This document shows, in pieces, positions 30,179-57,815 of a DNA stretch of 60,000 nt (position 1 is its first letter; every line of letters starts with the position of its first letter). Position numbers and translations under genes: made by a program. This DNA is from Membranipora membranacea (taxonomy: Eukaryota; Bryozoa; Gymnolaemata; Cheilostomatida; Membraniporidae). The notes under the pieces were generated by a model. The model saw only the letters and a list, made by a program, of their open reading frames with translations. It ran no database searches and was not told the DNA's origin. The stretch is taken from the NCBI GenBank assembly GCA_914767715.1, contig OU612069.1, positions 7,256,001 through 7,316,000 on the forward strand. Reading direction: 5' to 3'.

Positions 30179-30319
30179 CATCTGCAAACTGCCAGGACTG
30201 GAATTGTTAAATGTTTGTTTCAATAAACGCCTACAGACATTACCTACAGGATTGGGGGAAATTCCATCATTGAAGATTATAGATGTGGCTAGCTGTGGAT
30301 TAACTGGCCTTCCAGAGAG
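30179..30319 (+). CDS. Leucine-rich-repeat exon (141 nt, phase 2-2), copy 2
   Basis: Same acceptor (ttatttatccaccacag) and donor (GAG|GTGAGT) as copy 1, the same 141-nt length and the same phase. The peptide carries two LRR units: LPGLELLNVCFNKRLQTLP, then LKIIDVASCGLTGLP. The differences from copy 1 cluster in the variable residues between the fixed leucines (VNGNEG versus VCFNKR, KASDCG versus DVASCG), and neither copy has a stop or shift. That suggests both are or were used as coding exons. The downstream phase fits the Roc-COR exon at 41934. Whether it belongs to that gene or to a separate copy cannot be settled here. Confidence 0.72.
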
Positions 30320-32603: not shown

Positions 32604-34331
32604 CTAACTATCTACAAAGCAGATTTTATCTTTGTTTATGCAAACATAAGATTTATGCTTATGGCCATGTATTCTCACCTTATGCACCAAATCTGCAGCA
32701 GCATATGTCACTCCCTCCTTCTGTACTTGTCGCTGTCGTTCACTGACCTGGCGATGACGTCTATCTTTCTGCTGGCCGCTGGTGACAGCCTCACGTTTTA
32801 GTCGCTTCAAATCCTTCCTCTCAGCATGTTCTTCAACCTTCTCATCAGCCAAGAGACCAAAGCGATCAAGGATTCTACGCACCCCTCCTTCACCAGCGTC
32901 GAAAGTCATGACTCCAACAATAGCTGCCATCTGTACTGACGGTCTTCTAGCCCACTGTGTTTTAGGATATTTGCGCCATGTGTTACCGTTCAGGCTCTCA
33001 TTGGCGTTTTGAGTTCCACAGCGTGAGCAACTATCAAGCAACTCTAACATTTCTTTCGGAAGATCAGGTTTTGATTTCTTCATTTTTGGATTTTTAAATC
33101 AGCACCAACCATCAGTGGGACAGTAACGATGGTCTGGTTCATCATCAGTTGATGTAACGTGATATGGTGCGGCCATGATAGCATTCTTCATCGCATCTAT
33201 ATCACCTGCATTGTTGGGAATGGCGTCTCTACCACCCAAAGACTCAGTACTCTTTTTCTTCAGGGACTCCAGGCCGTGTATGAGTCTCTTGGCTACACGG
33301 TTTATGCACTCCTCCTTCTTGATAGCGATGTCATAAGGATCGGACTTTAGCAGTGCACTATATCCTTTACTATCCCCATCGCTCAACATAGTGATGTAGC
33401 GGAGCGGTCCGTTCTTAGAATGTTCCAGATGATTTCTGCAGCAGCTACCTCAATCGCATTACTAGAACTATTCTGGTTGCGATCACATACAGCATCATGC
33501 GTTGCCATAAATTGTTGAATACTTCTCAGGCTTCTGGAGTCTTCTTTCGCCTTCTCCCGCTTGCATATCAGGCAGAAATTGGACATGACTTCAAAGTCTA
33601 CAACCAACCCGGTTAGAATGTCCACGGCTAAAAACAATACCTGTACGGGAGGTATGGCCACGTTTGTGCCATGTGCCATCAAAGCTGACAGCAATGTCTA
33701 CAACTTCAGCATCAGCTGGTGCATGTCCGTCTTCTATGTAGTTAGCTTTTACAAGTTCAGAGGGTTGGTGTGGTGCATCACTGGTAGTTGGTGTCTCTGA
33801 TGATACTGCTGGAATAGTATATGTGCTTGTAGACGGTTGTTCAGCGACGCTCTCAGTCGATACGCTGCCGCTTGCATCTACTGGTGGAGTAGGAGTCTAA
33901 AACAAGTGAAGAACAACATTGAACCATTGTAAAGTATGTACACTACTATCCATGACTACTGCTAGCAGTAGTTCTGGATAGAAGTTGTACTAAATGTACT
34001 CAACACGTTGTTGGAGTAGAGCATCAACAGAACAATTTTCTTCTTGCAGTGGAAACTATTGGTGCGTGCAACTGCCATGAGATGTTCCAGTTTGATATTT
34101 TTCAACTGGAGATGGCATTGGCTAGTGACATCACATCACATCACATAGCGACATGTAAGCTACTCCTAGATTGCAGTTCTGGCCAGTTGGCTGATTTTCC
34201 GGTACCACTCACTCAACCTGCTGAAACTTACTTACGTGTTCATCCTGTGAATCCTTTTTGGGTTTACCATAGAATACTTTCTTTCTTTTCTTCTTCCCAT
34301 ACATGACTGAGTGAGATGCTTGCCTAGGCAT
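32604..34331 (-). pseudogene. Mutator-like transposase-domain gene, two exons, broken
   Basis: Exon 1 is 34331-34236: ATG, a lysine-rich start (MPRQASHSVMYGKKKRKK) and a perfect donor GTAAGTAAG, phase 0. Exon 2 begins at 33896 after a pyrimidine-rich acceptor. It carries DIAVSFDGTWHKRGH (about 33715-33660), AVDILTGLVVDFEVMSNFC (about 33630-33575), SSNAIEVAAAEIIWN (about 33465-33420), MLSDGDSKGYSALLK (33389-33345) and TQNANESLNGNTW (about 33015-32975). This series fits the Mutator-like transposase domain protein family widespread in cnidarian and sponge genomes, assigned from memory of its motifs. At least two frameshifts (near 33640 in a T run, and near 33400) and an in-frame TGA (about 33094) break it, and the middle between WC and the LPKEM part looks deleted. 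It lies on the strand opposite to the LRR and Roco exons. Confidence 0.75.
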
Positions 34332-38185: not shown

Positions 38186-38425
38186 TAAAATTGTTTTAAC
38201 CGAGGTTGATGATTATTTTTCTTTATTAGATCAGCTTAATCTTCTTAAGACTGACGAGTTTTTACTTTCCGTCTGTGCACACTATTTTAGCAAAGTTTCT
38301 GAGGACTCGAGCCATCCTCTTTTTTAATAAAATCAAGATCAATAATTTTAAAACATCCTCTCATAAACCTGTAATATCAAAATACTATCCTGAGAAGTGT
38401 CGAACTGAGAAGCGCAAGAAGAGTT
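38185..38425 (+). pseudogene. 3' end of a LINE ORF2 (thumb and C-terminus), plus strand
   Basis: In frame on the plus strand are VDDYFSLLDQLNLLKTDEFLL, HYFSKVSEDSSHPL and KYYPEKCRTEKRKKSFFQF, with one shift in the T run near 38320. The same segments occur in the LINE fragment at 51500-51750 (HFTRIADNDNHPL, KYRPSKCRTTKRQNTFFEF), which shows that they are one family's C-terminus. It joins head-to-tail-inverted to the minus-strand LINE that starts at 38430. Confidence 0.7.
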
Positions 38426-39202
38426 TTTTTCAGTTTTGTGGAACTTCCAGTATTGAGTCGGGTTCACGCTAGGTGCAGCATGTATGACTGGGACATCAGA
38501 ATACGGATTGAAGGTTAGACAATGATGATCACAACTACCGGGTTCAATGTCAGGTTCAAATATCTCCATATTTGTGAGAATGAGATCCAAAGTGTTTCCG
38601 AGAATATGAGTGGGTGACTTCACATATTGCGTTAAGTCACTGGAATCTAGAAAATCTAAAAGCGAAGTATGCATATACAGATCTCTCCTATTTTTCAGTG
38701 AAGATGTTTGCCAGTCAATGTCGGGCAGGTTAAAGTCACCGACAACAACTGTCTTTGCAGATAGGAGAGATTTATGCCAAGCTAGAAAATCATCTATGTT
38801 TTTCACGCACGGCCGGTGATAATAAACTACGAACACAAAAGAAAAACCATTAACATTTACATCAAGCGAAAGGATTTCACCACCATCATATTTGTTACAT
38901 TTCAATATATGGATCTTACTACTGTCGGATATACTTACAAGTACTCCGCCACCACGACCCACACCGTGAGTGCGGTCGTAGCGATGAAGTGTGTATTTAT
39001 CGCATACTTCACGATCGGTGATGGAGGTGAGAAGTTTTGTCTTGGATAGAGCGAAGATGTTCGGTGTATGATGGTCTAGCATAGTTTCGAGGTGGTGTCT
39101 CTTACCGCTGATGCCGTTCCAGTTCCAATACATGATTTTTAGATTGTGTTTATTGTTTATAATGGTAGTAGGTTGGTTTTCGTTAGCTGTTGATTTATTC
39201 AC
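38426..39202 (-). pseudogene. LINE apurinic-like endonuclease domain, catalytic Glu changed
   Basis: About 250 codons open without a stop. Motifs of the APE-type LINE endonuclease, which nicks target DNA for target-primed reverse transcription, come in order: NWNGI (39130), ALSKTKL (39053-39033), GRGGGVLVSI (about 38960), YYHRP, VVGDFNLPDIDW (about 38750), GNTLDLILTN (about 38600) and SCDHHCLTF (about 38530). The catalytic Glu of the usual SETKL box is Lys (codon at 39041-39043), a single G-to-A change that should abolish nicking. The Asp/Asn of GDFN and the Asp-His of CDHH remain. The C-terminal end is replaced by inverted LINE sequence. Confidence 0.82.
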
Positions 39203-39735
39203 TGTTAGGCAGTGATTGGTCAGTATTTGATGATGCAGTTTGAGTAACCGATATCTGTTCTAAGTCAACTTCGACTACTGTCCATAGTTTGACTGTTTTA
39301 TCGTAGATGTAGAGTGCCCCATTGCGTACCTGATATTTAGACCCAGTGTTAGCCTGGGTTAACTCACGTTTTTTGATACGCAGCTGGTACTCGAGGTCTT
39401 TCATCTCTGGTGATAGATCATTGGTAGCAAATGAATCCTCTCTGCCCTCGTATTTACTGTAACGTTTCATGAATTCGATCTTGTTGACTTCGTATCTTTA
39501 TAAGGCGAGGTTTGGAGTAGGTACTCTTTTGCTTGCCTAACCTGCTAATTTCTACAACAGTGTGTTCATGCATAGGAAGATCAGCAAGAGAATCAAATAC
39601 TATGGAATGTGTATTAGATTCCTCAGATATTTCGTGCAAAATGGCACAAGTTTTCCCAATCTGCTTAGCATTGACTTTATCAACCTGTTTGAGTCGATCC
39701 TCAAGCCTTTGAGCTAGACCTGAGACTTGATTCAC
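39195..39735 (-). pseudogene. LINE ORF1, C-terminal part in two frames
   Basis: Two overlapping open stretches (39735-39454 and 39470-39195). The first has a coiled-coil-like start (LAQRLEDRLKQVDKV) and then ILHEISEESNTHSIVFDSLADLP. The second has LEYQLRIKKRELTQANTG and a short strand-rich end (YQVRNGALYIYDKTVKLWTV). They continue the PHD-containing ORF1 after small indels near 39745 and 39460. The nucleic-acid-binding role is known for LINE ORF1 proteins in general. No individual activity can be inferred here. Confidence 0.6.
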
Positions 39736-39754
39736 AGTTGGGTCGGGTTTGGAC

Positions 39755-40135
39755 TCACCTCACCTCACTATATGATTTAATATAAGTATTAGTGACAGCG
39801 ATCAATTCCATCATATTCTCTAGCTTTTTGCCAACCGAATCTAGTGCTTCTCGAACACCAGGTGCCGGAAAGTAAGTCGGTAATTTAGGGAGACAAGCGT
39901 GACAGTACCAGAGTGAACCAGATTTACCAATTATATTTTTGAGATCTTGACCAGTTGTGATTTCTTTCCAGTCTTCCATACAGGTGGTATGGGCTGGTTT
40001 ATTGCAACTTGCACAGATAAGATTTAGCTTCTTACCTTTTTTCATTGAACACACAACACAGCCACTGTCCTTTGAGGCTGGACTGCTATCTCTACTGTTA
40101 GGCCTACTGCTAGTCTCACCAGCCATGTCTGACAA
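39755..40135 (-). pseudogene. LINE ORF1, N-terminal PHD-type zinc finger
   Basis: Open frame from the ATG at 40135. After a Ser-rich start (SSRPNSRDSSPASKD) comes a complete C4HC3-type finger: CVVC, CASC, HTTC and finally CHACL, spaced as in PHD fingers (Cys pair, Cys pair, His-x2-Cys, Cys-x2-Cys), with the Trp two residues before the last pair (WYCHAC). A helical stretch follows (VREALDSVGKKLENMMELI). PHD-bearing ORF1 proteins are known from CR1-like LINEs. The frame changes at about 39750, so the protein is not complete as it stands. Confidence 0.75.
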
Positions 40136-40567
40136 ACTCAGAACACTATGATCAGTGCAAGTAAGCGAAAGTAGTAAAAATCACCAACCTACCAAGCGCT
40201 AGCTCTAGAGCTCAGACGATAGTATATGGCTATTCTTAAATGGGCAAGAAGGGTTATCATAGGTTTGAATAAGATGGTGCAGTTGTGGTTTTGATATTTG
40301 TGCTATAAATACCAAGATGTTAGAGTTGTTTGATGTTCCACTGGTGTAGCTACTCTAGACTTTCTCAGTTTTCAGTTTCCCGCCAAAAATGATCAGCCAC
40401 AGTGACCCTCCTAAGACAACCAAAGACTCCTCGTATCCAGCTGGCAGTGTTCAGGAACTGATCTTGTGGTTTGGTACACCTTTCTGCAGGGTTGAGTGTT
40501 CCGTAGTACTAGGTTGAGTGTTGGTATTGTTTGTATTATGTTAATTTTTCTCAGAGCTGAAATTTAT

Positions 40568-41933: not shown

Positions 41934-43882
41934 CATCAGCCAGCTGATTAATCTGAAGTCTTTGGATATCGAGTGTAACAGCTCTCTCACAACCATCCCT
42001 GAGAGCTTATTCAGTATCCCCACATTAGAAAAATTAAAGTGTGATAACTGTGATTCTCTAACATCTCCACCACTAGGTGTCTGCACGCAAGGTGTAGAAG
42101 CTGTGAGAAAGTACATTCATGACCTCCATATTGAGAAAGCCAGTAATCAGAGACTTATAGCTGTCACTGTCATAGGGAAAAGCAGAGCTGGTAAAACAAG
42201 CCTTGTTAACAGTGTGCAAGCAAACAAAAGGGTGCTGACACAACGCATTTCTGATGAGGGGAAATTGGATGCTGCCACTAAAGTGTTTGAAATGAGCGAG
42301 GCGGAAGCTGACGAGAAATCAAAAATACTCTTCACTGACTTCGGAGGCCAGAAGATCTATCAATTTTCCTATAGACTGACTTTTAGAAGAAAATGTGTGC
42401 CGCTGCTAGTGATAGACATTGCTGAGTTTGATAGATTAGTTTCAGAGAAAGGTGAGGAATCTGCCTGTCAAGAGCTTTGTATTGAGTGGTTATCCCACCT
42501 CTACATTGCGTGTCCTCAACTGAAAAGACCTGTAGTAGTCCTCACTCACTGTGACAGTATACCTGATAAGGTTGAACAGACGACTCATCAACTGCTCAAA
42601 GTGACTGAGAAATTGCGCCAACGTATCATTCAAGCAGAAAATAATGTCGAACAGAAAAATGACTCTAACCCGATTTTCACCATGACCAGCTTCGCCAACA
42701 CCTCAGAAGTCCTGATAAGGCCTTGTGACATCCATCACTTCTCGAAGACATCCGGACAGCCTGAAATCGACAAGCTGAAAAATGCTATCATAGCAGCTGG
42801 TGCAGGATTAATCACTGAGATTCCCGGTAGCTGGTATCGAATACTACAGAAGCTAGTCCAACACTCTGACAAGCCCATGCTCACCCTGTCTGAAATAGAG
42901 AAAGAATTTCCTGATGATAAAGGACATGTCACTCTCGAGTATCTTCATGAAATAAGTCAAATAATGTGGTTCAGGAGACTAAACAAGCTATCAAACTTTA
43001 TATTCCATCGCTCTAAAGTCATAACAAGTGTGATAGAAGTCCTATACAACCACACAAAAGAGGAATCCTGGTACAAAAGGCTAGATAAATTTACTCCGTT
43101 TTCTCTTGTTGACGGAATAACCATAGAGAAGAGCAGATATGTAGAGATGATAGACACATTCAATGACACAGGAGTGATGGATGCACCTCTGCTTCTACAC
43201 CTCTTAGGGCAAGAATCCCAACTCCCTGCCGATGTGTCCATCGAAATCCTAAGAACATTTCATCTTGTGCATCAATGCGGTTCAAATGCTGCAATAAGCA
43301 ATCAGAAATACATTATACCGTATTTTGCCAGCCGAACAATAACAGCCCCTGAAGTGTACGATCAACTGGTGCCGTTGAAGGTCGATCTTCATCTCCGCGG
43401 TCTACCCATACCCAGCTACATCTTCTCCCTCATCACTGCCGTCTATCTAGACATGAATTCTAATGCTTCAAACTTTCCAGAGGCAGGTGGGAATGGTGCT
43501 ACTGTGACCAAGAGTAATGGGATAATCGAACACCTCCTTCACAATGCAGGTGAAAAGCGTGTCACTCTAATCACTCTGACACCTCAGAAAAGCCTCTGTG
43601 AAGCGAGAGAAGAGCAGATTTCGACCCTGAGAAAGCTCACCACCGAACTCAAATCTGTCTGGAAAGGAGTTCGTTATGAGAGTGTCTTCTACTGTTCTCA
43701 CTGCCTACTAACTATCAAACTAGACCCACAAACAGCTGTTGATCCTGATTGGTACCAAGAGGATGTTCCAGATAGTTCTAGAGAAAAAGCTCCCAGCTAT
43801 ACCGGATATGAGAAGTTTGTCTGCAGAAAGGAAGTGCAGAACAAAGAGAACCGACTTGTTCCACAACCACTCATGAAACCAT
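41934..43882 (+). CDS. Roco-caspase exon: LRR end, Roc GTPase and COR
   Basis: Acceptor ttctgttcttttgcag, donor CAT|GTATGT; 1949 nt, entering in phase 2 and leaving in phase 1. It starts with two LRR units (INLKSLDIECNSSLTTIP, then LEKLKCDNCDSLTSPP). The Roc domain follows: P-loop GKSRAGKTS (42175-42201), DFGGQ (42337-42351) as the Roc-typical switch II with Gln, and LTHCD (42541-42555) as the NKxD-equivalent guanine motif. COR begins near IPGSWYRILQKL (about 42820) and contains LHEISQIMWF and the HLLG..SQLP region. All nucleotide-binding motifs look intact, so GTP binding is likely. The last 100 residues, up to KPC, show no known domain. Confidence 0.9.
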
Positions 43883-45754
43883 GTATGTAAAAGTCATAAA
43901 AATATGTATTATCATAGTGTAAAGTATCTTTATTGGCATGGAAAAGGCAAATTGCTTTAATAAAATGAACTTGAAGCACCATCTCCCTGTGCTCCAGCCA
44001 CTACAGCTGCTTACCTACCTTGAACCCCCTCTTCAGCAGCCCTCCCAGACACTGATTTTTGTGTGCATGGAAAACTCATTTTATTATCAATGATTCTTTG
44101 CGAATATTTTAGGCTCAAGCATAACAGAGGCTGGTCATACTGAGCTTCAAGACTACATATCAAAGCTTGTCTTATCAAGTAAGTTTCCGAATTAATTTGA
44201 ATTAAAATTTATAAAACTTAGTACATGTTTAATCAGTTTTTATCCATCAAAAGTTGTTGTATTACATCTATATATTACATTATACATATAATGTGTGATC
44301 ATCTTAGTGTGACCATAAATGGGAGAAACTTGAAAATCAAGCAAATGAACAAAGCCAACTATGACTCTCTAACAAAAGTCTGCTAATTTTATTCAAGTTA
44401 TATATGTTTTATGGTTATCATTATATCTGAAGTCAGTGATAAGGTGCTACAACTGACATTACTGTAATGTGACACCAAGTTGCACAGCTAGCAGAGATAT
44501 TTGTTGGGTACATCAATGCATACTAATGATGACAACCACTCGTCTTAAATATGAGTTTATATGTCACAATCATATATATATCTCATTTAAATATTAAAAT
44601 CTACAATTGTTAAATGCTATATATACAATAGAATGGAAGCTGCAGGTTGTCTATATCTTCGACTTGAATTCTAATTTTAACCAGGTGACAAGTCACAGAT
44701 ACTGAAGGAGCTCATAGAGAAGCATCCATTAGACGCTAACGACATCAATCGACTATTTGTTCAGAGTGACCAGTACATCATACCACATCATCAAGATCAT
44801 ATGAAGAGGTACGGTCTGGTGCTGTTCAACACCGAGAATAGACCTGATGCTGAAGATGAAGCTAATAAAATGGCTGACAGCCTAGTCACAGCAGGATGCG
44901 AGACTCAGAAGATAGAATGGAAAAGTGCATTAGACCTGCGTCTCAGAATTGATGAGCTTCCATCCCAAGGAATCTCCCTTCTTGTCATCTCCATCATGAC
45001 CCATGGAAAAGCCGGAATGCTGTATGGCTGCAATGGCTCGCATATCCCCATCACTGATGTTCTACAGATACTAGATAATAAGTTGTCTGAGCAAGTCCCA
45101 ATGGTATGTATTCATTCTTCAATACTCCACGGCAGCAAACATGCTGATGATCGAAAAAATGGATCAATATGTGGCATGGGCTGATGATGTGATAACTTCT
45201 CATTCGAATAATAACCATCTGTTGACTATCAAACAAAATAAAATTGTAACTACGGTTGCACACTAAATCATACTTTCAAAATATTCGTGGCAATCGATAT
45301 AATATAATACACATTGTAGATTGCCATAGTTCAGGCCTGCCAATATTACAACCCTGCACAAGCAGCTGGACCTTCAACATGCCATTCTGATGCAAAGGAA
45401 GGTAAATCAAATGAGGTGGACCATGTCGTACTAAAGAGGCCTCATACACTGCTACTGATGTCAACAGTGGTTGGAGAGATGGCTGTCAGAGGAGCTCTTA
45501 CTGGAGCCATAGCCAGGCAGTTTGCTAAGGCTGATGGGAAGACAACCATACATGAGATGGTTACAAATGCTGTCATGGGCATGAAGGAGAGTGAAGGAGA
45601 CAAGTATGATCAGTCTCCAGAATCGCGAAATACACTTCAGAAGAACCTTGTTCTTCCTCCTGTAGTGAGCAGTACAGGTCCTCTACGAAGATCCAAGCAT
45701 ACAAAGGAGAGTCTCCTAAAAAGCTTGGCTACCCAAAGGCAATATAAGCACTGA
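41934..45754 (+). CDS. LRR-Roc-COR-caspase fusion protein (Roco-caspase), 3' four exons
   Basis: Exons 41934-43882, 44113-44178, 44685-45103 and 45320-45754 join in phases 2/1/1/0 without a stop and end at TGA 45752-45754. The encoded order is LRRs, Roc GTPase with P-loop and DFGGQ, COR dimerisation domain, a short linker, caspase p20 with His and Cys, and p10. Roco GTPases act as LRR-regulated switches. Caspases cut after Asp in cell death and inflammation. A single chain joining both suggests a sensor, GTPase and protease receptor in the cytosol (inference). The 5' end is not fixed: the LRR exons at 12372 and 30179 have the right phase to splice to 41934. No signal peptide or membrane segment is visible in these exons. 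The downstream neighbour is convergent. Confidence 0.88.
44113..44178 (+). CDS. Roco-caspase linker micro-exon (66 nt)
   Basis: Acceptor gcgaatattttag, donor TCAA|GTAAGT, phase 1-1. It encodes SSITEAGHTELQDYISKLVL and joins the end of COR to the caspase exon. It is a helical-looking linker without a recognised domain. The call rests on strong splice sites and on phase that agrees on both sides. Confidence 0.7.
44685..45103 (+). CDS. Roco-caspase exon: caspase p20 with catalytic His
   Basis: Acceptor tctaattttaaccag, donor ATG|GTATGT; 419 nt, phase 1 in and 0 out. The first 45 residues (SQILKELIEKHPLDANDINR and following) are a helical segment that could be a short prodomain. From about 44802 the caspase fold starts: YGLVLFN, then ENRPDAEDEANKMADSL, in which the Arg matches the P1-Asp-binding Arg region of caspases (RxGTxxDaxxL). 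LLVISIMTHGKAGMLYG follows, with the catalytic His at 45002-45004 in THG (SHG in most caspases). It ends just before the Cys strand, a usual intron position for caspase genes. Confidence 0.87.
45320..45754 (+). CDS. Roco-caspase exon: catalytic Cys, inter-subunit linker, p10
   Basis: Acceptor acacattgtag, phase 0, stop TGA. IAIVQACQYYNP carries the catalytic Cys at 45338-45340 (QACQY where most caspases have QACRG). The linker then has two Asp sites, HSD and NEVD, the second resembling executioner caspase cleavage sites. The p10 follows: KRPHTLLLMSTVVGEMAVRG matches the ST..G..S.R strand of p10, and TGAIARQFAK matches the GS.FIQ helix. A basic tail of about 45 residues (SKHTKESLLKSLATQRQ) ends the protein. 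Both active-site residues and both subunits are present, so I expect an active protease, although the substrate preference is unknown. Confidence 0.87.
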   Translation: MAIVQACQYYNPAQAAGPSTCHSDAKEGKSNEVDHVVLKRPHTLLLMSTVVGEMAVRGALTGAIARQFAKADGKTTIHEMVTNAVMGMKESEGDKYDQSPESRNTLQKNLVLPPVVSSTGPLRRSKHTKESLLKSLATQRQYKH

Positions 45755-45916
45755 CTGTCTCACACATTATTAAGAGAAGTAAGCACCTCAACTATTCATT
45801 AGCGTGTCGGGTTATCTTGAAAGTAAATACACCATGTTATAGACTGTGCTTATCAATTGGTTATTTGTACTGCATTAACTTTTATTTCTTCTGTCACAGT
45901 TAACAATGGCGGAATA

Positions 45917-46167
45917 CCCTACGGGAAGAAATGTTTGGTGGAACTTACTTTCGCGACTTGCCCTCTCATGTGTGATTTAGAGGAATAAAAGTTTAGCGAG
46001 GTTGTCCACTCGCTAAAAAGAGAAGATAGCTTCTAACTTTTTTTTCGGATTTTTTTTATTTTTTCTTCCTTTTTGGATCAATTTTCTGGTGGAATAAATT
46101 ATTAGCGATATTCTAGGTCGCCGAAATCGCGAAATTTAATTCACACCAAACATTTTTTCCTGTAGGG
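45917..46167. mobile_element. 251-bp MITE with TA target duplication
   Basis: Terminal inverted repeats of about 27 bases (CCCTACGGGAAGAAATGTTT on the left; the right end is the complement CCCTACAGGAAAAAATGTTT), flanked by TA at 45915-45916 and 46168-46169. No open frame. The TA duplication points to a Tc1/mariner-like mobiliser. It sits 162 bases past the Roco-caspase stop and provides AATAAA at 45983 and 46093 on that gene's sense strand. Confidence 0.85.
45983..46098 (+). terminator. Candidate polyadenylation signals of the Roco-caspase gene, within a MITE
   Basis: Two AATAAA hexamers (45983-45988 and 46093-46098) are among the first after the stop codon at 45754. Both lie in MITE sequence. 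That one of them is used is inference. Confidence 0.35.
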
Positions 46168-46169
46168 TA

Positions 46170-47767
46170 GTCTCCTACATATGTTACGAATTTATGGCTG
46201 TAGACTAACAAAAATGATCATCACAATCTATATCGCTTTTCATCCCTCTAATTGTCATTTTGTGACTGTTGTTATAGCACTTATCTTCTCTCTGCATGAG
46301 AGAGGATAACTCCTTGTACTAATATTATCTAGGTTTTGTATCGTTTACTGTTCGGATAAGCCTTGTCACGCGGCAGTTTTTTTTTGGTTGTTTCCCCAAA
46401 ACAAAGAAATTAGCCACTTGATAAGGCTAATATATTTATACTGTCTGGATGTAGATGATATGTTGTTCTTTGTGCCAGCATAGAAATTAGACAAGTGATA
46501 ATTTACTTGCTATCTGTTACTTCTTGTATTAATATAATTTTGTATTTGATTAAGTGTTATGTTTGCACCTATATGGAACAGAATTCATGTTCAATGAGAT
46601 ATTACTATATAAATAGCCTGTGCAGAGAATGCAGGTTGTTGGTATTATATGTAACATGAGTAGTTCACCATTGTAGGCTGAGAGCTATGGTACGTATATT
46701 CTTAAATCTTGAACCTGTGGGATTTGATACTTTTGTTGTTGTTAGCTGAGTAGAGACAGATCTCAAGTACAGCAGGTATATTGGGAGTACCTTTTTTTTA
46801 TTTATATAGGGGCTAGTTAAAAATTAAAATGACAGGTCACCACAATAACAAATCACTGATGTATATTTACTGTAATAACAAGCTCTGTCAAACTCCCAGC
46901 AGAGGTGAACCTGCTATTGAGCCTAACCTGGGTTTTCAACCTCCCTCAATTTTGTGGCAAGACTGGGTGAAGTTTTCTTTAGATTAATCCCTCCAATAAT
47001 AAATAATGATTCGACGAGCAATCCGACAGCTTGGCATGGAGACGCTACATTGGGTAATGGAGTCACTATGCCTATCTTAGGATACGGGACTTGAAAGGTA
47101 AGATATGTTCTAATTGTTGTTATATCATAACTCCACCTGCATGAAACACTGTTGATTGACATCATCATCATCCTGAGCTGAGTATGAACTGCATTGTGGG
47201 ATATAAGACTCTCTCTCGATAGTTTTGCATAGATCCGGGAATGGGGGACCTATCACCACCCTCACTCCAATATGTATAGCCGAGCGAGGCCAAGCTATGT
47301 TCATCTACGATGGATTGAGATTTTCTTCTTGATTGTATAGACCAAACCCGAAGATTAATAGCAGATTGCACCTTCTGCATAGGGAAAAAACAGAGTCTAA
47401 TTCGGATGATTATTCTGTCATAATTTTTGTGAAACGGTTCATCTATCAGGTACTCAAACTCAGCTAAAATAGAATACAAATAGAATGCACAAAGCTGATG
47501 CTGCCTAGCACATGATTTACTAACAATTAATATATTGCTGCGAAACCTTGTTTGCCCTTTAAAACTCACTAAAATATCCCGTATCAAAATCAAAAACGTG
47601 ACAAAAGATAAAATTCTTTGCCAACGCTACCAATAAAAATACCGGAGGCAGTTCCATTTTTTAAAACGTGACCTTGTCAATTGTTGAAGCAGGAAGCCAA
47701 AAAGGTTGCGCATCTAATATTTTATCTCCTTCTTTACATCCTTGCAAGAATAAACTACCAACTTACG
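46170..47767. other. Between the two convergent genes; no firm gene
   Basis: Mostly AT-rich spacer. Two long minus-strand open stretches (47593-47168 and 47171-46923) could be the last exon or 3' UTR of the minus-strand gene. A T-rich segment ending in gatattttag (about 47566) could serve as an acceptor for the first. Confidence 0.4.
47168..47593 (-). CDS. Hypothetical terminal exon, 141 codons open
   Basis: Open without stop over 426 bases on the minus strand, with unremarkable composition: QHQLCAFYLYSILAEFEYLI, then IRLCFFPMQKVQSAINLRVW, then a Ser/Arg-rich end. I recognise no domain. It lies downstream of the donor at 47767 of the AT-hook gene and may be its last exon. The gene's donor at 47767 leaves one base, and the possible acceptor at about 47566 would give a compatible phase (TG AGT TTT). 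Chance openness remains possible. Confidence 0.3.
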   Translation of the reverse strand: MILIRDILVSFKGQTRFRSNILIVSKSCARQHQLCAFYLYSILAEFEYLIDEPFHKNYDRIIIRIRLCFFPMQKVQSAINLRVWSIQSRRKSQSIVDEHSLASLGYTYWSEGGDRSPIPGSMQNYRERVLYPTMQFILSSG

Positions 47768-47931
47768 CGCTGGTTTTTGTTGTGGGGTTTTGGTATTGAG
47801 CGATTTTCTGGTACAGACAGACTTGGACATGCCGTGACATGTTGATAGAAGGCTGTATCTGGAGATTCTTTCTTTTCTCTGACGACTGAAGAACAATCCT
47901 CCGTCACTACCACCTCTCATCTCATCATTCT
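47767..47931 (-). CDS. AT-hook gene, downstream exon (basic Ser/Arg-rich)
   Basis: Acceptor tttactcagcag and perfect donor GCGC|GTAAGT. The frame reads NDEMRGGSDGGLFFSRQRKE, then RISRYSLLSTCHGMSKSVCT, then SLNTKTPQQKPAR. It enters in a phase that fits the donor at 48326 (GATA|GTAAGC). Identity unknown. Confidence 0.55.
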
Positions 47932-50900
47932 CTGCTGAGTAAAGGTATCAGTATGAATAAAATCACAGAAACACGCTATCCATGTCAGAATTCACCTTCT
48001 TAAACATTTGGCATATTAAAATGTACAAGCCACCTTGTATTCCTCCAGTTAGTCAATTCATTTGATATTCGATTTACTTATACAGCTTACCAAGCAGGCA
48101 ATGCAGCAAGTAAACATTAATTTTAATTGTCGTTCCTTTAGTTGTGAGCAGATATCTCCTAAAATCAATGCCCGCTTTATACGACACATATAAAAACAAA
48201 TAACTACCGGTTGTGGGATTTTGAGATGTAGGTATAGTTGCCGGGTGTATGAGGGTGAGACGTAGGTGTGGTCGCTCTCTTATTCTCATTTAAAGATTCA
48301 TAAAGTAGAAAGTTTCTCAGCTTACTATCAAACTCATCAAAGGTTGAGGAGACATCATGGACACTGCCCTTATTGCGCCTGTTTTAGTCTTCGGTTTTGT
48401 CTGCAGCAAAGAGAAAGAACTTGAAATGATTTCATGTCAGTTTGTCGAATTCGTGATTTTTCAGATGAATGCTTGCAAATCAGAAGGGCTTCAAGACAGT
48501 ACCTCCAACACAATAGAACAGAAGGCAGTGTAGCTCTGACGGTTAGGGCAACTCCCAAGTGTTTGAAGAAATGGGCTCAAATACCGTAGCAGTATATTGA
48601 TGACAGACCTTCTTACTTTACGCAATTATTCGTTGTGTGTGTCTTTTTATCTGTAATTGTGAGCAATCATTGGGGCATATGCTGATAGTCCCTCATTAAT
48701 CATCATTTCTGTTTGGAAATAGTTAAACCCCGATGACAACAAGACACAGAATTCAATAAAACATAAGAAATTCAATTCATTGTCCTCCATAACCAAAATT
48801 CGATTAAATCAATCTGATCACTCACCTCAACAGGTGGATAGATGAACATGAAGTGACTGCTGCTGCTGTTTTCATGTTGAGCCAGACATGGGTTACAGAC
48901 ATTCACTATAGTGTCATCCATTATATTATGGGCCTTCCCTTTAGTGTTGTAATCTGCTAAATTATGGTCCTTCAATGTAGTGCGAGCTGCTATACTATCG
49001 GCCTTCACTGTAGTGTCATCTGAATTGGACGATACGTCATCTCCAGTTTCGTCTACCAAACCATCACTGGCAGGCATGGCCTTGGGAGTTATCTCTCCGG
49101 CCACAGCATTGTAGCAATCAAAGCTATTTGCATGTAACTCTTTACCAGGAGTTGATCCAGTTGACTTCAGTATAGTCTTGATAGGTGTGATGGCACCACT
49201 TAACTCAGGCGTTTCAAACATAACCACTATAGCTTGACCTCTAGTACGCGGCGTCATGGCATACTTAACTATTTCAGCGAATGACATTCTAGGTTTGGTT
49301 TACACACTTTTGATTTCCTCATCATCAGCAGGTGCTCTGGGTTGTGGCTCTGATAGGCTCCTCGCTCGCTTACTTGCTGCTCTCTTTGTAGTAGCTGGTT
49401 TAGTAGGCTCCGATCGCATTCTTGTCCGGGTATTCTTAGCGGGTCTACCTCGCTTAGGCCGCACTGTGATTGGAGATGGGACAGTAATTTTTTTCAATAG
49501 GCTGAGCATTTACATGTTCCTTGTCAGCTGCACTATCGCTGTCACACTGAACTTATGATTGTGTTTTTGACACCTCAGCCTCAACATCTCCGCCAGTCTC
49601 CAGCCTGGACTGTTGGGTTTCAGGTACAGTTTCAAACTTCTCATCATCGCCCATTCCTGTAGCGACAGGAGGAGCATCCTGTGTTTCTGGCACAGTATCG
49701 TTGTCTATCTGTGTAAAATCTGATACAGCACAATGCTTCTCTGATGGATTTCTATGACATAAGAGTGCACTAGATGGTGTGACACCACCGTCATGTACTT
49801 TGTTTTAGATGTGTGTTGAGGCAATATTGTTAAAATGACCAGTAACTGCCCAACTGACATTTAATTGCATACTTTTAGTGATTTTCTTGTTCACCTTTGT
49901 CATGCTATCTTTCACGATGGGCCTTTCATCAACAGGTTCTTTTTGGGAATTCTTAATCTGTTGTGACAAGCTCACGTCAGCAAACTTTTCACATACCTTA
50001 TCTCGTAATTAAACCGCTGGGGGACTGTCGGCCTTAGCAACAGGCTTCTTGAAATTCATGATTTTTGATGTTGTTCCTTTTGTTGCTACGCTCAAGCCTT
50101 GGTTTTCCAAAAGGGGAGTTCCCATAACATCAGGCTCGGGGTCAACATGAACATTGATTTCATTTTCATCTGATCGCTGTTGATCCTGGGTTATACTTGG
50201 GCTGTCAGCCAGCTTGATATCAAATGTTTTCAGAAACTGTTTGGGTGTAAATGGTTTGGTTTTGACTTCCAAATTTGTTTCATTCTCACAGAGAATCGAT
50301 TCGTTATCAGGTGCAGCAGACCCAACCACTGGGCCTTCTGTTGATGTGGCCTCAGGTTCTTGATGTGGACTAATTACAGAGTTGAGGGTCAGAGAAGGCC
50401 CAGAGTGCGAATTCCCTTCAATGTCATCACGCTTCTGCATAGGCTCCATTCGTTCACTCTCCACACTAGGTAGAACAACCTCATCAACCACAACATGGTC
50501 AGTTGATTCTTTTGTAGCCAATCTAGCCGAGTTATGAGAGCTATGTGAGCGGTTAACTCAAGAGAACACTTTCCTTCCTTCCCATGGTAAAGTTACTGAG
50601 CCATGGACAATACTATTATCTTGACTGAATGAGCGTCTTTGCTGTGTGTTTTCACTTGTTTGTATGGGCTCATTCTGATCTTGCTTGTGCTCAGAAACCT
50701 TCTTACCTTTTTGTTGAATGTTGGATATGCGCTTCTTTTTAGCAATAGGTGTGAACCAAGGTGACTTATTGGATGATTCTAAGCCATCATTAAGAGCCAG
50801 CCTGGGACACGAAGTAGAATGTGTCAGTTTTCCCCCGCTGCTACCTTTTTCTTTGCAGAGCTTTAGCAGCAGCTTGCTTCCTTGGGCGTGGTGTCTTTTG

Positions 50901-53483
50901 TTGTCTGGGTACTGATTTCTTTCTCTTTCTGGATTTTGGGGCCTCTGGCACTGGGATGTTAATCTCAAGATTGGGACGTTTCGAAAAGGAGTGGGCTCAG
51001 GTAACACTCTACAACAATCTGCTGGAACACGACTGTGGGCCTGAGAAACGTCGCTGGCTGTACTCCCGACTGTCTTCTTCTTCTTTGTCCCTCTCTCTAC
51101 AAGTTCTTCCTCAGCTCCATTGTCAGCAGTTGGAAAGCTTATGGTTCTGAAGGGATTAGCTGAACAGTCTTGGTCCTCAGTACTAAATACCCAGGATATA
51201 AACAGCAAAGTTCATTTGATGAACAAAACTATATCTAAGATTCTTGATAATCACTGCCCTATAAAAACCACCAAAGTACGGGTCGACAAACCTCCCTGGA
51301 TGAGCGACACACTACACAAAGTAATCTGTGTCAAAAATGAGGCGTACCATAAAGGCTGCCCATCGCACAAACTACTGAGAACTATCTGCCAACGACTCCT
51401 CAGACAAAACAAAAGAAAATTCGTCCGGGAAACCCTCAACAAAAACCACTTGACTCGAGAGGATCCAGCGCTCTGCTACTCGGATTGTACTAACATTCTC
51501 TGACAACTACGAGCAGAAGTTGGACCATTTAGCACTGCCACCCATCACAACATTCCTGCACACCACTTGCAGTGAACATTTCACTAGAATAGCTGACAAC
51601 GATAATCACCCCTTGAACTCTCGTATTAAAATAAACACAAACAGAACATCTGCTCGTAGAGCAAAAATAGATAAATATAGGCCATCCAAGTGTAGAACAA
51701 CCAAAAGACAAAATACCTTTTTTGAATTTTACATGCGATTTTTTAACTAATGCAGCTCAGAGTCCTTTTATTTTTATTTTTCCATGTATCTGCTGTACAT
51801 TCGATGCTATCAACCTATCCCAGGATGGATATTAGAATTTAGGCAATAAACAAACTTCAAACTTCAAAGAAAAAAGACGCACAGCTAACTGCCTGAGACG
51901 AAGGGAGGGTCAGGGCTGGTTTGACTACTGCCCCGTAGTCAATTGAGGGAGCTCCGCTGAGGACAGCAACTCCATCATCTACTGAGTTGTCATTGGTTGA
52001 TTGAGCATGTGTTGGAGAGCCTGATACTGTGGTCCCATAATCAACAGAGCGCTTAGCTGGTGCTGCAGCAGCCCAATAATCCATAGAGACATCACTGCCA
52101 GATTGAGATGAGGGAAGTGGTAGTACACGGTTTCTATTTCTTGACACAGAAGATTCTTCATCAGAAGCTTCTGCTGTCCTGACAGCTTTATTGGCTTCAC
52201 ACTCAAGAATGTTGTCGGCTACAGCGGGCTCATCTGATTTGCTGTCAGCTACAGGGAAGTCATCTGATTGGTTGTTGGCTACAGGGTAGTCATCTGATTG
52301 GCTGATGTCACCAGAGGATCTGTCTTCACTTTGTATGACTTGATGTGCCGGAGACTTAGATACTACTAGAAGAGCGAGATAGGTTAGGAGTCACAGAGCA
52401 GATTCTACTACTGGTACTCTGACCTGGTGGTGTATACTGGTCTACCTCCTCGTCTAAAATAGAAAAGTCATTTAAATTAATTAATTTTTGATCTAATGCT
52501 CTCCAATAAGATTTCTATGAATGTTAAAAGCATCATTGCAATAAGCGAATTAAATTTTTGACGTCAAATCTGCATAAAATATATTGCGATTTGCCCTAAC
52601 ATTCTTTTACTTAGTGTTTGAATTGGAGATTAAAATGCAATTCATCACTGTGAGACTGATAGACACTTATCTTACAGGTGAACATGTTACAAAATGCCGT
52701 TGTCTACTAATTTAAACATCATCTTATGTTACACAATACAGACATTTACGTCTATGTCTATGTTAGTTCTATTTCTATGGTCTACACTCACCCCGATAAT
52801 GTACATCTTGGTTGATTTCACTACTAATATCAGATACACAGCCTTACTGTGTTGCAGATTTATCCGTCTATTTTGTATTGTTCTCTTCTCTACCAAATGA
52901 GTTAGGCCATGTGACAACAAAAAACAGGATACCCACGAAAGGGCGTGTCAAAGAACATCAAACAATTCAAATGTCTGGAATTTTCAAGTAGAGGAAGAGG
53001 TTCTTTAAACTGCAGGCGTGTCAAAAAAAAACCATAATGTCATTTTCGCAAATTTCTCAGTAGAACTTGCAGGCTTATATACAGTAGGAATTCTGAAGAA
53101 CACCCCATGATGCAATTTTATGGAATTCCCAGGTAAAAAGATCAGACTTACAAGCAGTGGGTATGTTTTAGAATATCCCATGATGCAACTTTTTGGGATT
53201 CCAAAAGAGAGCAGAGAGGTCTGTGAACAGTGGGCATATCACAGAGTGTCCCATGATGCAATGCTCTGAAATTCTCCAATTAGAACAAGTCAATGACAAC
53301 CGGATAAACTCTGTCATTGTCTAATCCACTTCCCTTCTTAGTCTAACTAGGAGGACCGGAGTTATACTGACTTCTGGGGAGATTGGCATGGGAAAATTTG
53401 AAATTTCCTACTTGCAAAATACAACCAATATTATGCTGTAGCAAAGAAAGCTTACTCTCAGTTTTCTTAGTCCCGACAACCAT
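47767..53483 (-). CDS. Multi-exon gene for a disordered AT-hook nuclear protein, possibly degraded
   Basis: Exon 1 is 53483-53456 (MVVGTKKTE), exon 2 52453-52424 (EEVDQYTPP) and exon 3 from 52365. Their phases agree (1 and 1). Coding pieces continue at about 51150-50545, 50527-48826, 48400 (or 48378)-48326 and 47931-47767. The product is Ser/Thr/Pro/acidic-rich with basic clusters (SRKRKKSVPRQQ, TPIAKKKR), two VPETQ motifs and an AT-hook core PKRGRPAKN (about 49472-49446), so a chromatin-associated role is likely (inference). I cannot name it. Odd points: a LINE fragment within it, four in-frame TAA codons and one homopolymer shift in the 50527-48826 piece, and a duplicated first exon. It may be a decaying copy or a mis-assembled gene. 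Confidence 0.6.
48326..48400 (-). CDS. AT-hook gene, exon with two possible ends
   Basis: Acceptor ttctctttgctgcag at 48401, or AAACAG at 48379. The second avoids an in-frame TAA just after the first. The frame reads NKGSVHDVSSTFDEFD and meets the donor GATA|GTAAGC at 48326. The frame stays open past that donor to another (AACCG|GTAGTT at 48208) and reads SKLRNFLLYESLNENKRATT, so a longer splice form is possible. Confidence 0.5.
48826..50527 (-). CDS. AT-hook gene, large central exon with four in-frame TAA codons
   Basis: A single reading frame of about 1.7 kb from the acceptor actcggctag (50528) to the consensus donor GAG|GTGAGT (48825). It is interrupted only by TAA at 50009-50011, 49805-49807, 49553-49555 and 49300-49302, and by one extra base in a T7 run (49488-49494). 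Between the stops the peptide is coherent: SPHQEPEATSTEGPV, KPFTPKQFLKTFDIKL, two VPETQ repeats, the AT-hook PKRGRPAKNTRTR, PRTRGQAIVVMFETPELSG and NPCLAQHENSSSSHFMF. Random AT-rich sequence would hold far more stops of all three kinds. It is either a young pseudogene, an assembly or sequencing problem, or something else (see findings). Confidence 0.55.
50545..51150 (-). CDS. AT-hook gene, basic region, with a likely 43-nt intron
   Basis: The minus-strand frame RPNLEINIPVPEAPKSRKRK, followed by KSVPRQQKTPRPRKQAAAKA, runs to AAAAG|GTAGCAGC. It resumes in phase after ...TCGTGTCCCAG with LALNDGLESSNKSPWFTPIA, which implies a very short intron of 43 nt. It continues KKKRISNIQQKGKKVSEHK to about VTLPWEGRK (50565). 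The upstream part toward 51150 (TADNGAEEELVERGTKKKK) is in another frame, so another junction or shift must lie between. Highly basic, probably nuclear. Confidence 0.45.
51160..51885 (+). mobile_element. LINE fragment (linker plus C-terminus) inserted in the AT-hook gene
   Basis: On the plus strand the linker after the endonuclease is open (SKILDNHCPIKTTKVRVDKP, then PWMSDTLHKVICVKNEAYHK), followed after an internal deletion by the C-terminus HFTRIADNDNHPL ... KYRPSKCRTTKRQNTFFEF. It ends aataaacaaacttcaaacttcaaag, a short tandem 3' end as is usual for CR1/L2-type elements. RT is missing. Its family is that of the fragment at 38185-38425. It lies antisense to the AT-hook gene, between exon 3 and the next coding piece. 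Confidence 0.78.
51887..52365 (-). CDS. AT-hook gene, exon 3 (repeat-bearing acidic N-terminal region)
   Basis: Acceptor cgctcttctag (52366), entering in phase 1 after exon 2. It encodes VVSKSPAHQVIQSEDRSSGD, then three 10-residue repeats of the type SDDYPVANNQ, then EASDEESSVSRNRNRVLPLP and twin motifs SVDYGTTVSG / SIDYGAVVKP. Acidic and Ser-rich, it is probably unstructured. The 3' end is obscured by the LINE insertion: the frame runs to LTLPSSQAV before LINE sequence. The true donor is not identified. Confidence 0.6.
52218..52307. repeat. Coding minisatellite, three 30-bp units
   Basis: Units begin with gctacag at 52218, 52248 and 52278. They encode the 10-residue acidic repeat of exon 3 on the minus strand. 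Confidence 0.85.
52424..52453 (-). CDS. AT-hook gene, exon 2 (30 nt)
   Basis: Acceptor attttag, donor CCAG|GTCAGA, phase 1-1. It encodes (N)EEVDQYTPP. It is short, but the phases on both sides fit exactly. Confidence 0.55.
53104..53325. repeat. Degenerate tandem repeat of about 73 bp
   Basis: The core ccatgatgcaa recurs at 53104, 53178 and 53251 (spacings 74 and 73), each preceded by a cagtgggtat / cagtgggcat / acagtaggaa type segment. Two weaker units lie at about 52945-53040 (gcgtgtcaaa). The left edge of the 2-kb duplication (53243) falls inside the last unit. Confidence 0.75.
53456..53483 (-). CDS. AT-hook gene, exon 1 (start codon), copy 1
   Basis: ATG GTT GTC GGG ACT AAG and on to donor GAGA|GTAAGC; 28 nt, phase 1. 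Chosen as the start because the next two exons follow in phase. An identical exon lies in the second copy of the duplication. Confidence 0.55.
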
Positions 53484-54504
53484 TTTCTGTTGAAAACTTC
53501 TTTCCCTTCAGCTGCAAACAACAGAATAAAAGATTTAGGAAACTTCATTTAGAGTAATTCCTTCCGTTATCCAGGTAAAAATTACAACTGGCAATAATAG
53601 CTTTAAAATGAGTTTGTAGATAAGATTTAAATTTTGTTGACCCTCAAGTTGATTTCGTGGACAGAGCAACTTTCATTGTGTACAGCCAACTCATAAGGCG
53701 CCGAATTGTTATGCAATGACCATAAACATATATAAATATAATTATATATAGCATATAATTTTATGGTGAAAACCTGTGTAAGTGCTTTTCTCTTCAGTCA
53801 ATCCTAATTTCAAACTGACCACTTTCAGCAAAATAATATTATATAAAATAAGATAAGTGGAACTAAAGTTTTTTGGTAGTATAATGTTTTTGTTTTACCT
53901 CATCTAACAAGATGGCAATCCAATAGAGGCCGTCTATACTATATTAAACTATCCGCGATAATCTTGTTGATATATTGACGAATAAATTAATAATTAAACA
54001 TAAACTTGAGTTTAGTCTAGCTTTTTTGGGGTAACTTAGTATTGACACCAACTTTTACTAGTCAAGGTTGGGGTGTATATGAAAGTTGGTTGAGTGAAAG
54101 TGGGCTAACCATAAATCTCACTTTTGCAAGCAGTGCAATAATGCGGACATAACCTCCGATGAATACTTTACTCTTCTACGGTATGTTTTAGTTGGAAGAC
54201 CCAAATACCAATGGGGTTCTAGGGTATGGCGTTATAACACTGCGTTTCATACCCAAGATTTGTTGGACAATTCTGTACAATTCTTGAATTGTTCGAAACT
54301 GACCCATATATCATTAACCAACCAGCAACCATTATTGAGTAATTAACCCTACCTGCTATATAAATTACGTTCATTATTGCTATTGTATAGTTCTAATACA
54401 AGCCTTTACAGTTCTAGTCAATATTATATAATTGGATTGACATTGTATTCAATGAATTTGGATTTAGATGACCAGGCAAGAACTGTTGTAATGAATAGAT
54501 ATTG

Positions 54505-54567
54505 CTGTGCAAGGTAGCATCGAAGTCCATGATGCGGGAGGCCCAGGTTCAAATTCCGGCCGGGGCA
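54505..54567 (+). other. tRNA-like sequence (Gly-like 3' half), not a functional tRNA
   Basis: gatgcgggaggcccaggttc aaattccggccggggca resembles the 3' half of tRNA-Gly and carries a B-box-like GGTTCAAATTCC. The 5' half does not fold: the 7-base end CCGGGGC has no partner upstream. Probably a tRNA pseudogene or a SINE head fragment. The second copy is at 56549-56611. Confidence 0.5.
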
Positions 54568-55499
54568 AATCTTTTCTTTTTGTCATGTTGGAAATCGAAA
54601 GGTAAGGTAAATCAACTATTGTAAGCCTGGTATATATTCATTTCCTGTCTACAAAGGAGCTCTTGATGTTATACTATAATTATTCTGAGCCATCTCAGTT
54701 ATATGGTGTACAGGAAACAATTTTGGCATTTTCCTATCTCACTCATGGATGGTAGTTCCCTAGTAGGTGTTGGCACTAGTACAGATAGTATTAAAATGAT
54801 AGACTAGTGGCAACACCATTTAAAGTAACAAATTTTAATCTGGCAGCTTGAGTACCACAAGCAGGGGGGTTAGCCAATAACAGGCATAATTACATAATTA
54901 CCTTGATATCCTTGTTGTCAAAATTTTTAATTGTCCAATCAAGTATAATTAACACTGTTTGTTAATCCTTTACACACATTCCATTGCACTTGTAACAAGT
55001 CATCATGAGACACTTGGTCATTACAGCAGTTAAGATTTAAAGCGATAAATTATTGCCAGGAAAGCCTTTAAGCAGATAATCTTTCAAAGCTCTCAGATTA
55101 TTATTATCGGCTGCATTGATATCTTTAGAATTTACAGTGACCACCAGACATTCTGTACAAACGAGTTCTATTGTGTCATTGAATGATAGGCCTGTTTGAT
55201 TTACTCTTGCTTCTCTCTACTCATGTACCATACAATTCAGAGCTTTCCCAATTTGGGCAAATCTTTTCTTTTCGTTTCATCATAAGAGTGTCCCATGATG
55301 CAATGCTCTGAAATTCTCCAATTAGAACAAGTCAATGACAACCGGATAAACTCTGTCATTGTCTAAACCACTTCCCTTCTTAGTCTAACTAGGAGGACCG
55401 GAGTTATACTGACTTCTGGGGAGATTGGCATGGGAAAATTTGAAATTTCCTATACTTGCAAAATACAACCAATATTATGCTGTAGCAAAGAAAGCTTAC

Positions 55500-55527
55500 T
55501 CTCAGTTTTCTTAGTCCCGACAACCAT
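55500..55527 (-). CDS. AT-hook gene, duplicate exon 1, copy 2
   Basis: Same ATG and donor as at 53456-53483, shifted by 2044 bases. It could serve as an alternative first exon that splices over copy 1 to 52453. Confidence 0.4.
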
Positions 55528-56548
55528 TTTCTGTTGAAAACTTCTTTCCCTTCAGCTGCAAACAACAGAATAAAAGATTTAGGAAACTTCATTTAGAGTA
55601 ATTCCTTCCGTTATCCAGGTAAAAATTACAACTGGCAATAATAGCTTTAAAATGAGTTTGTAGATAAGATTTAAATTTTGTTGACCCTCAAGTTGATTTC
55701 GTGGACAGAGCAACTTTCATTGTGTACAGCCAACTCATAAGGCGCCGAATTGTTATGCAATGACCATAAACATATATAAATATAATTATATATAGCATAT
55801 AATTTTATGGTGAAAACCTGTGTAAGTGCTTTTCTCTTCAGTCAATCCTAATTTCAAACTGACCACTTTCAGCAAAATAATATTATTTAAAATAAGATAA
55901 GTGGAACTAAAGTTTTTTGGTAGTATAATGTTTTTGTTTTACCTCATCTAACAAGATGGCAATCCAATAGAGGCCGTCTATACTATATTAAACTATCCGC
56001 GATAATCTTGTTGATATATTGACGAATAAATTAATAATTAAACATAAACTTGAGTTTAGTCTAGCTTTTTTGGGGTAACTTAGTATTGACACCAACTTTT
56101 ACTAGTCAAGGTTGGGGTGTATATGAAAGTTGGTTGAGTGAAAGTGGGCTAACCATAAATCTCACTTTTGCAAGCAGTGCAATAATGCGGACATAACCTC
56201 CGATGAATACTTTACTCTTCTACGGTATGTTTTAGTTGGAAGACCCAAATACCAATGGGGTTCTAGGGTATGGCTTTATAACACTGCGTTTCATACCCAA
56301 GATTTGTTGGACAATTCTGTACAATTCTTGAATTGTTCGAAACTGACCCATATATCATTAACCAACCAGCAACCATTATTGAGTAATTAACCCTACCTGC
56401 TATATAAATTACGTTCATTATTGCTATTGTATAGTTCTAATACAAGCCTTTACAGTTCTAGTCAATATTATATAATTGGATTGACATTGTATTCAATGAA
56501 TTTGGATTTAGATGACCAGGCAAGAACTGTTGTAATGAATAGATATTG

Positions 56549-56611
56549 CTGTGCAAGGTAGCATCGAAGTCCATGATGCGGGAGGCCCAGGTTCAAATTC
56601 CGGCCGGGGCA
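56549..56611 (+). other. tRNA-like sequence, duplicate copy
   Basis: Identical to 54505-54567 as far as I can see; part of the tandem duplication. Confidence 0.5.
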
Positions 56612-56828
56612 AATCTTTTCTTTTTGTCATGTTGGAAATCGAAAGGTAAGGTAAATCAACTATTGTAAGCCTGGTATATATTCATTTCCTGTCTACAAAG
56701 GAGCTCTTGATGTTATACTATAATTATTCTGAGCCATCTCAGTTATATGGTGTACAGGAAACAATTTTGGCATTTTCCTATCTCACTCATGGATGGTAGT
56801 TCCCTAGTAGGTGTTGGCACTAGTACAG

Positions 56829-57288
56829 ATAGTATTAAAATGATAGACTAGTGGCAACACCATTTAAAGTAACAAATTTTAATCTGGCAGCTTGAGTACC
56901 ACAAGCAGGGGGGTTAGCTAATAACAGGCATAATTACATAATTACCTTGATATCCTTGTTGTCAAAATTTTTAATTGTCCAATCAAGTATAATTAACACT
57001 GTTTGTTAATCCTTTACACACATTCCATTGCACTTGTAACAAGTCATCATGAGACACTTGGTCATTACAGCAGTTAAGATTTAAAGCGATAAATTATTGC
57101 CAGGAAAGCCTTTAAGCAGATAATCTTTCAAAGCTCTCAGATTATTATTATCGGCTGCATTGATATCTTTAGAATTTACAGTGACCACCAGACATTCTGT
57201 ACAAACGAGTTCTATTGTGTCATTGAATGATAGGCCTGTTTGATTTACTCTTGCTTCTCTCTACTCATGTACCATACAATTCAGAGCT
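56829..57288 (+). repeat. Left arm of a large interrupted inverted repeat
   Basis: Its reverse complement appears in three pieces at 57816-58042, 59267-59352 and 59862-60000. The arms are separated by about 527 bases of unrelated sequence. The right arm runs off the window. Confidence 0.9.
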
Positions 57289-57815
57289 TTCCCAATTTGG
57301 GCAAATCTTTTCTTTTCGTTTCATCATAATTTAACTCGAAAGCAGTCCATTTGAGTTGAGAGTGATTAGTGCCAAACTGTTGCATGAAAGCTTGTGATAC
57401 TCCCTTCATCCCAACCTTCTACCCTACCCTACATAATCTTTTGTGCAATCTTTCAATGTTGGCAGCAATTGCATCTTTAGAATGCATCAGCCAAACTATT
57501 CTAGAGGAATTATTACAAAACTTTGCTAATTATGAAGTAAAAAATCGCTAACTGGTTGAGCGAGGATCTACTTTGTAAAAAAACTTTACATGCCTAAGTG
57601 GAGAGAAGTGATATGAGAATGAGGCCATATTCTCCACAGAACAAATGATTGACAAAAATATTGCTGAAAATATGCTGGCTGATGCTAAAAAAAACACATA
57701 CTTGGTGTCATAGCATGTAGTATTAGTAGTGATCATTGGTATACTCCTCGGCATATTTTAGCGTGAATGGCTTTCATCAGCTTTCTGTTGGCTGAAGATG
57801 CTCTGAGCATGGAGT
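57289..57815. other. Centre of the inverted repeat, no gene seen
   Basis: About 0.5 kb of unique sequence. Open frames on both strands (57369-57551 plus; 57548-57754 minus) show no recognisable domain. Confidence 0.5.

Follow-up and report, generated by a model that had tools for sequence, protein, structure and literature searches.

A predicted Roco gene of the bryozoan Membranipora membranacea that ends in a caspase domain

We analysed a 60,000-nucleotide stretch (the window) of the Membranipora membranacea genome (assembly GCA_914767715.1, contig OU612069.1, positions 7,256,001 to 7,316,000) and found on its forward strand a split gene at 41934-45754. Leucine-rich repeats (LRRs), a Roc GTPase, a COR domain and a caspase are most likely encoded there by one gene, and a single fused gene explains the DNA best. 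The product is probably a single intracellular receptor-protease with the order LRR - Roc - COR - linker - caspase, in which the caspase would be gated by GTP. This order of domains, with the p20 and p10 parts of the caspase and its catalytic pair, had been proposed in a sequence-only reading of the same stretch and was supported by Pfam, by the motifs and by a fold model of exon 1. The Roc and caspase matches are not due to chance.

Exons and domains of the predicted protein

The four exons agree in phase, as had been proposed, with splice sites at the positions given for them. Once joined they encode 955 residues, and the frame stays open until the stop ending at 45754. The phases at the three joins are 1, 1 and 0, and every exon border is AG/GT. 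Exon 1 is preceded by the acceptor TTTTGCAG and followed by the donor GTATGT, the 66-base exon lies between TTTTAG and GTAAGT, exon 3 lies between AACCAG and GTATGT, and the last exon follows TTGTAG. The introns are 230, 506 and 216 bases long, and the continuing frame meets 7, 9 and 7 stops in them. Introns mark the gene as eukaryotic, as do the transposon parts near it (described below), and the best solved matches of its caspase, caspase-2 and caspase-8, suggest an animal. Its features are the following.

41934-43882, plus strand: exon 1, with the last LRRs, Roc and COR (splice sites, Pfam, fold matches)
42163-42555, plus strand: Roc GTPase match with G1 GKSRAGKTS, G3 DFGGQ and G4 THCD (Pfam PF08477, motif positions)
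42823-43719, plus strand: COR, spanning roughly residues 297-595 (matched in fold to the COR of 3dpt and to 3dpu, 6hlu and LRRK1/2)
43883-44112, plus strand: intron with AATAAA at 43959-43964 (splice sites, stops in the continuing frame)
44113-44178, plus strand: 66-base linker exon (in-phase exon search, codon score)
44685-45103, plus strand: exon 3, encoding linker sequence and the caspase p20 as far as the strand that precedes the cysteine (Pfam, codon score)
45002-45004, plus strand: catalytic His778 in THG (motif; aligned with SHG of caspase-2)
45320-45754, plus strand: last exon, with QAC, the inter-subunit linker containing Asp835 and NEVD845, p10 and the stop (Pfam, motifs)
45338-45340, plus strand: catalytic Cys818 in QAC (motif; aligned with QAC of caspase-2)
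45984-45989, plus strand: AATAAA, which may serve the full-length transcript as poly(A) signal (consensus only)

The hidden Markov model (HMM) search that had been proposed for the joined product gave a divided result: Roc (PF08477, E-value 1.1e-6, 29.3 bits against a curated cut-off of 27, residues 77-207) and Peptidase_C14 were above their cut-offs, whereas COR-A (0.081) stayed below. All the motifs named in the sequence-only reading are present, those of Roc at residues 81 (GKSRAGKTS), 135 (DFGGQ) and 204 (THCD). The Roc part matched solved structures of the C. tepidum Roco (3dpu, 7.1e-8; 4wnr, 1.5e-6). Between this Roc and five Rocos from bacterial plasmids, G81, GKT, DFxGQ and WL are invariant, and across 73 sequences G81, G86, DFxGQ and W185 are.

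By sequence the COR domain is weak, with no Pfam match to COR-B on the joined product and no support from a profile comparison of the region with five bacterial Rocos (hhalign probability 0.2%). The fold model of exon 1 matched the LRR-Roc-COR part of the C. tepidum Roco and of LRRK1/2, and the COR of 3dpt alone was matched with an E-value of 2.1e-9. A COR domain directly after Roc is supported by the fold model, not by Pfam. LRR_8 was also below its cut-off in the Pfam scan of the joined product (0.035), and LRR-like units of strand and helix were seen at residues 9-51 of the exon 1 model. The features of the Roco (Roc-COR) family, namely Roc, COR and, for most groups, LRRs ahead of Roc, were found in the predicted protein.

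The C-terminal part matched Peptidase_C14 (PF00656) with an E-value of 1.3e-13 at residues 720-921, covering positions 14-232 of the 233 in the profile, and the caspase domain of the predicted protein is complete, both catalytic residues included. Its best matches among solved structures were animal caspase-2 and caspase-8, and these were weak. Since the single-sequence fold of exon 3 (predicted local distance difference test, pLDDT, 51) had no meaningful structural match, the caspase assignment rests on sequence. No death-fold prodomain (CARD or DED), a feature of animal initiator caspases, was matched by Pfam at E-values up to 1.

The canonical caspase pentapeptide is QACxG. At Cys818 we found QACQY, which keeps three of the four named residues and lacks the glycine. 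This departure and the weak similarity to solved caspases would fit a caspase part that acts as a regulated scaffold or pseudoprotease, with weak or absent activity of its own, and that partners another caspase, in the manner of c-FLIP and caspase-8. We consider this quite improbable, as His778 and Cys818 are kept, Arg724 and Arg868 stand at the positions of the S1 arginines (judged by eye only), and the linker between p20 and p10 offers two aspartates for cleavage (CHSD835 and NEVD845).

Continuity between the Roco and caspase parts

Coding potential was scored with a codon model for which exons 1 and 4 were the training set, and null stretches that were held out, stop-free and overlapping were used for comparison. 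The 37 codons ahead of Met711 scored 0.32-0.40 per codon, like the remainder of the p20 exon (0.29-0.35). Their score was reached by 0 of 139, 0 of 91 and 3 of 830 held-out nulls, and by none of the 230 nulls of a first run, in which the nulls had themselves trained the background. By this measure the 37 codons look coding.

Two neighbouring genes, or two isoforms, would instead comprise a Roco protein ending ...LMKPCM at 43890, with the AATAAA at 43959 as its poly(A) signal, and a separate caspase that starts from Met711 (44801) or from an unrecognised exon. We regard this as unlikely, with the following points in its favour. The in-frame stop that ends at 43890, 8 bases past the donor of exon 1, fits the end of a Roco-only protein, and the AATAAA could end its transcript; Met711 sits exactly where the caspase domain begins; and the linker exon is weak as coding sequence when taken alone, its codon score being reached by 18 of 404, 44 of 338 and 135 of 2530 held-out nulls. 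However, AATAAA is weak and unspecific evidence, because it occurs also within the coding sequence of exon 3 and within intron 3, in addition to the copy at 45984 past the stop. A separate caspase would also have to account for the 37 codons before Met711, which exceed nearly all the held-out nulls and all those of the first run, and 43885-44680 contains no exon that begins with ATG and has a consensus phase-1 donor. The phases of the fused gene agree whether or not the 66-base exon is included, and the interval's sole stop-free in-phase internal exon of at least 21 bases that has a strong donor is 44113-44178 or its 3' part.

Upstream exons and surrounding sequence

The earlier four-exon model is incomplete, in that two more phase-compatible LRR exons were found upstream. 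LRR exons were sought with a pattern, with a small HMM made from repeats of the window itself, and with a BLAST search of the window against itself. The pattern gave six matches in the window, which correspond to three LRR exons and to three unlike LRRs. The two upstream exons are the following.

12372-12512, plus strand: candidate LRR exon of 141 bp with two repeats, phase 2 at both ends (pattern match; own-repeat HMM, E-value 3.9e-23, the HMM being built from the same exons that it then matches)
30179-30319, plus strand: candidate LRR exon of 141 bases, phase 2 at both ends, duplicate of 12372-12512 (pattern, HMM, self-BLAST)

Both are bordered by a CAG acceptor and a GTGAGT donor, and they join exon 1 in phase with an unbroken LRR rhythm (...GLTGLPDS-ICKLPGLELL...GLTGLPES-ISQLINLKSL...). 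They were copied along with 1.5 kb of their surroundings, at 83% identity. The introns that they imply would be long (17.7 and 11.6 kb) and have transposon parts inside, so these candidate exons are likely, but no more than likely, members of the Roco-caspase gene. The true 5' end of the gene was not found in the window. An in-frame ATG at 41881, 5' of the exon 1 acceptor, could start a short form.

The region upstream of the gene is rich in repeats. Positions 1660-38176 form a dense mesh of direct and inverted repeats with 67-95% identity, within which the LRR exon and its flanks are duplicated. A fragment of a Mutator-like transposase lies at 33102-33449 on the minus strand (PF20700, 1.2e-10). 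Inside the presumed long intron, at 38351-40180 on the minus strand, there are parts resembling a long interspersed nuclear element (Exo_endo_phos_2, 6.5e-11) and a PHD-like open reading frame (ORF), whose match of 1e-4 is just under the cut-off. Downstream of the gene, a unit of 2045 bases occurs twice, head to tail, at 53243-57329 with 99.7% identity, which may be a very recent duplication or an effect of the assembly.

Dense repeats and transposon parts over the 38 kb upstream could suggest that repeats produced the gene as a recent or decaying fusion, or that it is an artefact of the assembly, in either case with no product. Against this, 955 codons run without a stop or frameshift, and the catalytic residues and splice sites are intact; we therefore hold such an origin to be very improbable.

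A tblastn search of the window with the joined protein (E-value up to 10) returned nothing other than the exons of the gene itself. Searches for close relatives gave 19 pattern matches in genome contigs and 5 in viral contigs, with no relatives among them. Rfam and tRNA scans of the window had no matches, and PADLOC found no family in two parts of it. A Pfam scan of 11 long frames with stops as X (ten of 5000 residues and one of 4999, part of the frames of the window) reported no families. This silence means little, because the in-frame exon 4 (within 45002-60000) and an LRR exon (within 1-15000) also went unreported.

Proposed action and comparison with known systems

LRRs bind ligands, Roco proteins alternate between a monomeric and a dimeric form as their nucleotide state changes, and initiator caspases are switched on when they are brought together. 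In the predicted protein, a ligand would be captured by the LRRs, and its binding would shift the Roc-COR module between monomer and dimer, the two states that GTP controls. Upon pairing, two C-terminal caspase domains would meet and be activated by proximity, and would cleave the linker between p20 and p10 at Asp845 (NEVD) or at Asp835. The active protease would then cut its targets, with killing or alerting of the cell as the simplest outcome. Such a molecule could be likened to an inflammasome or apoptosome in one chain, in which a Roco GTPase replaces the NACHT or NB-ARC ATPase and no adaptor is needed. The earlier description of a self-contained sensor and executioner may fairly be inferred.

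We compared the gene with 85 bacterial and archaeal Roco loci (80 and 5 plasmid loci; labelled with L numbers here), seeking caspase-like motifs in the longest Roc-bearing ORF of each. Seven of the 85 ORFs (L006, L030, L037, L038, L039, L056, L069) had no tail past COR, and L050 had one Cys-like motif. Sixteen distinct proteins, comprising the five plasmid ones, L084 and those with the ten longest tails (L026 included), were scanned with Pfam, and Peptidase_C14 was found in none of the 16. Among the ten longest tails, seven had no Pfam family and one had only a domain of unknown function below the cut-off. TIR was found at the C-terminal end of L002 (3022-5193, a Niveispirillum plasmid) and L075 (5720-6295), the same place as other effectors. 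L026, from a Desulfonema metagenome-assembled genome, is an LRR-Roc-COR-CHAT protein, its tail matching CHAT in Pfam (5.2e-9), chat in PADLOC (2.6e-25) and the solved CHAT protein 8tl0 (1.8e-15). CHAT is a caspase-clan peptidase, and L026 carries it where the bryozoan gene has Peptidase_C14. As a separate observation, the Roc-COR gene of L004 (1-6411, Photobacterium toruni plasmid NZ_CP101696.1) is flanked by a Mu transposase C-terminal part and TniB on one side and by TniQ on the other, placed as if it were cargo of a Tn7-like element.

Among animal proteins, LRRK1/2, MFHAS1 and DAPK1 share the Roc-COR core, and in LRRK1/2 and MFHAS1 LRRs stand ahead of it; they carry a kinase, WD40, a death domain or no effector, and a caspase is not named in the passages of these papers (PMC6337361, PMC6320773). 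Roco proteins with CARD and death domains, described in a passage on Trichoplax, tie Roc-COR to death machinery in an early animal through adaptor domains, in contrast to the protease itself in the bryozoan gene (PMC4104024). For the sponge Dysidea avara, a figure legend names caspase and COR among the domains drawn for NLR architectures, so sensor-effector fusions may exist in sponges (PMC12909245). The D. avara proteins are NACHT-LRR receptors and differ from the bryozoan gene in their NACHT switch (PMC12909245). In the open-licence literature, an animal Roco with a caspase was not named in the titles and abstract beginnings among the matches listed.

Animal death pathways usually split sensing, switching and cutting among several proteins. 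With a caspase built into a Roco protein, LRRK/DAPK-type switches would be covalently tied to caspases, and the question whether a Roc-COR GTPase cycle can gate a caspase could be put directly.

The peptidase IPR009003 we take to be a trypsin-like serine peptidase and not a caspase. It is the C-terminal domain of group 3 of the brown algal ROCO proteins, which resemble the bryozoan gene as eukaryotic Rocos with a C-terminal protease and phase-2 LRR exons (PMC11378527). They differ in that they are not from an animal and their peptidase is other than a caspase. The sequence-only reading knew of no described Roco that ends in its own caspase, and this claim did not hold for bacteria, in which LRR-AP-GTPase(Roc)-COR proteins with a C-terminal caspase have been published (PMC8195603); the brown algal proteins are a further case with a C-terminal peptidase (PMC11378527). 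In the bacterial proteins the C-terminal place is taken by at least 24 domains, including caspase, trypsin and TIR, and a role against invaders has been predicted (same passages of PMC8195603). Because caspase is in that list, the LRR-Roc-COR-caspase layout is already known in bacteria, and the order LRR, Roc, COR and C-terminal effector is shared with the bryozoan gene (PMC8195603). Unlike them, the bryozoan gene has introns, and the best solved matches of its caspase are from animals. We tentatively suggest, as a possibility somewhat short of even, an animal immune or cell-death receptor with ligand sensor, GTPase switch and active caspase in one molecule, in effect a GTP-driven inflammasome of one chain, which would have been either retained or taken over from Roco-caspase defence proteins of bacteria. 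The gene would be an animal counterpart of the bacterial Roco-effector defence proteins, and it adds a predicted eukaryotic case with a classic p20/p10 caspase to a layout known from bacteria.
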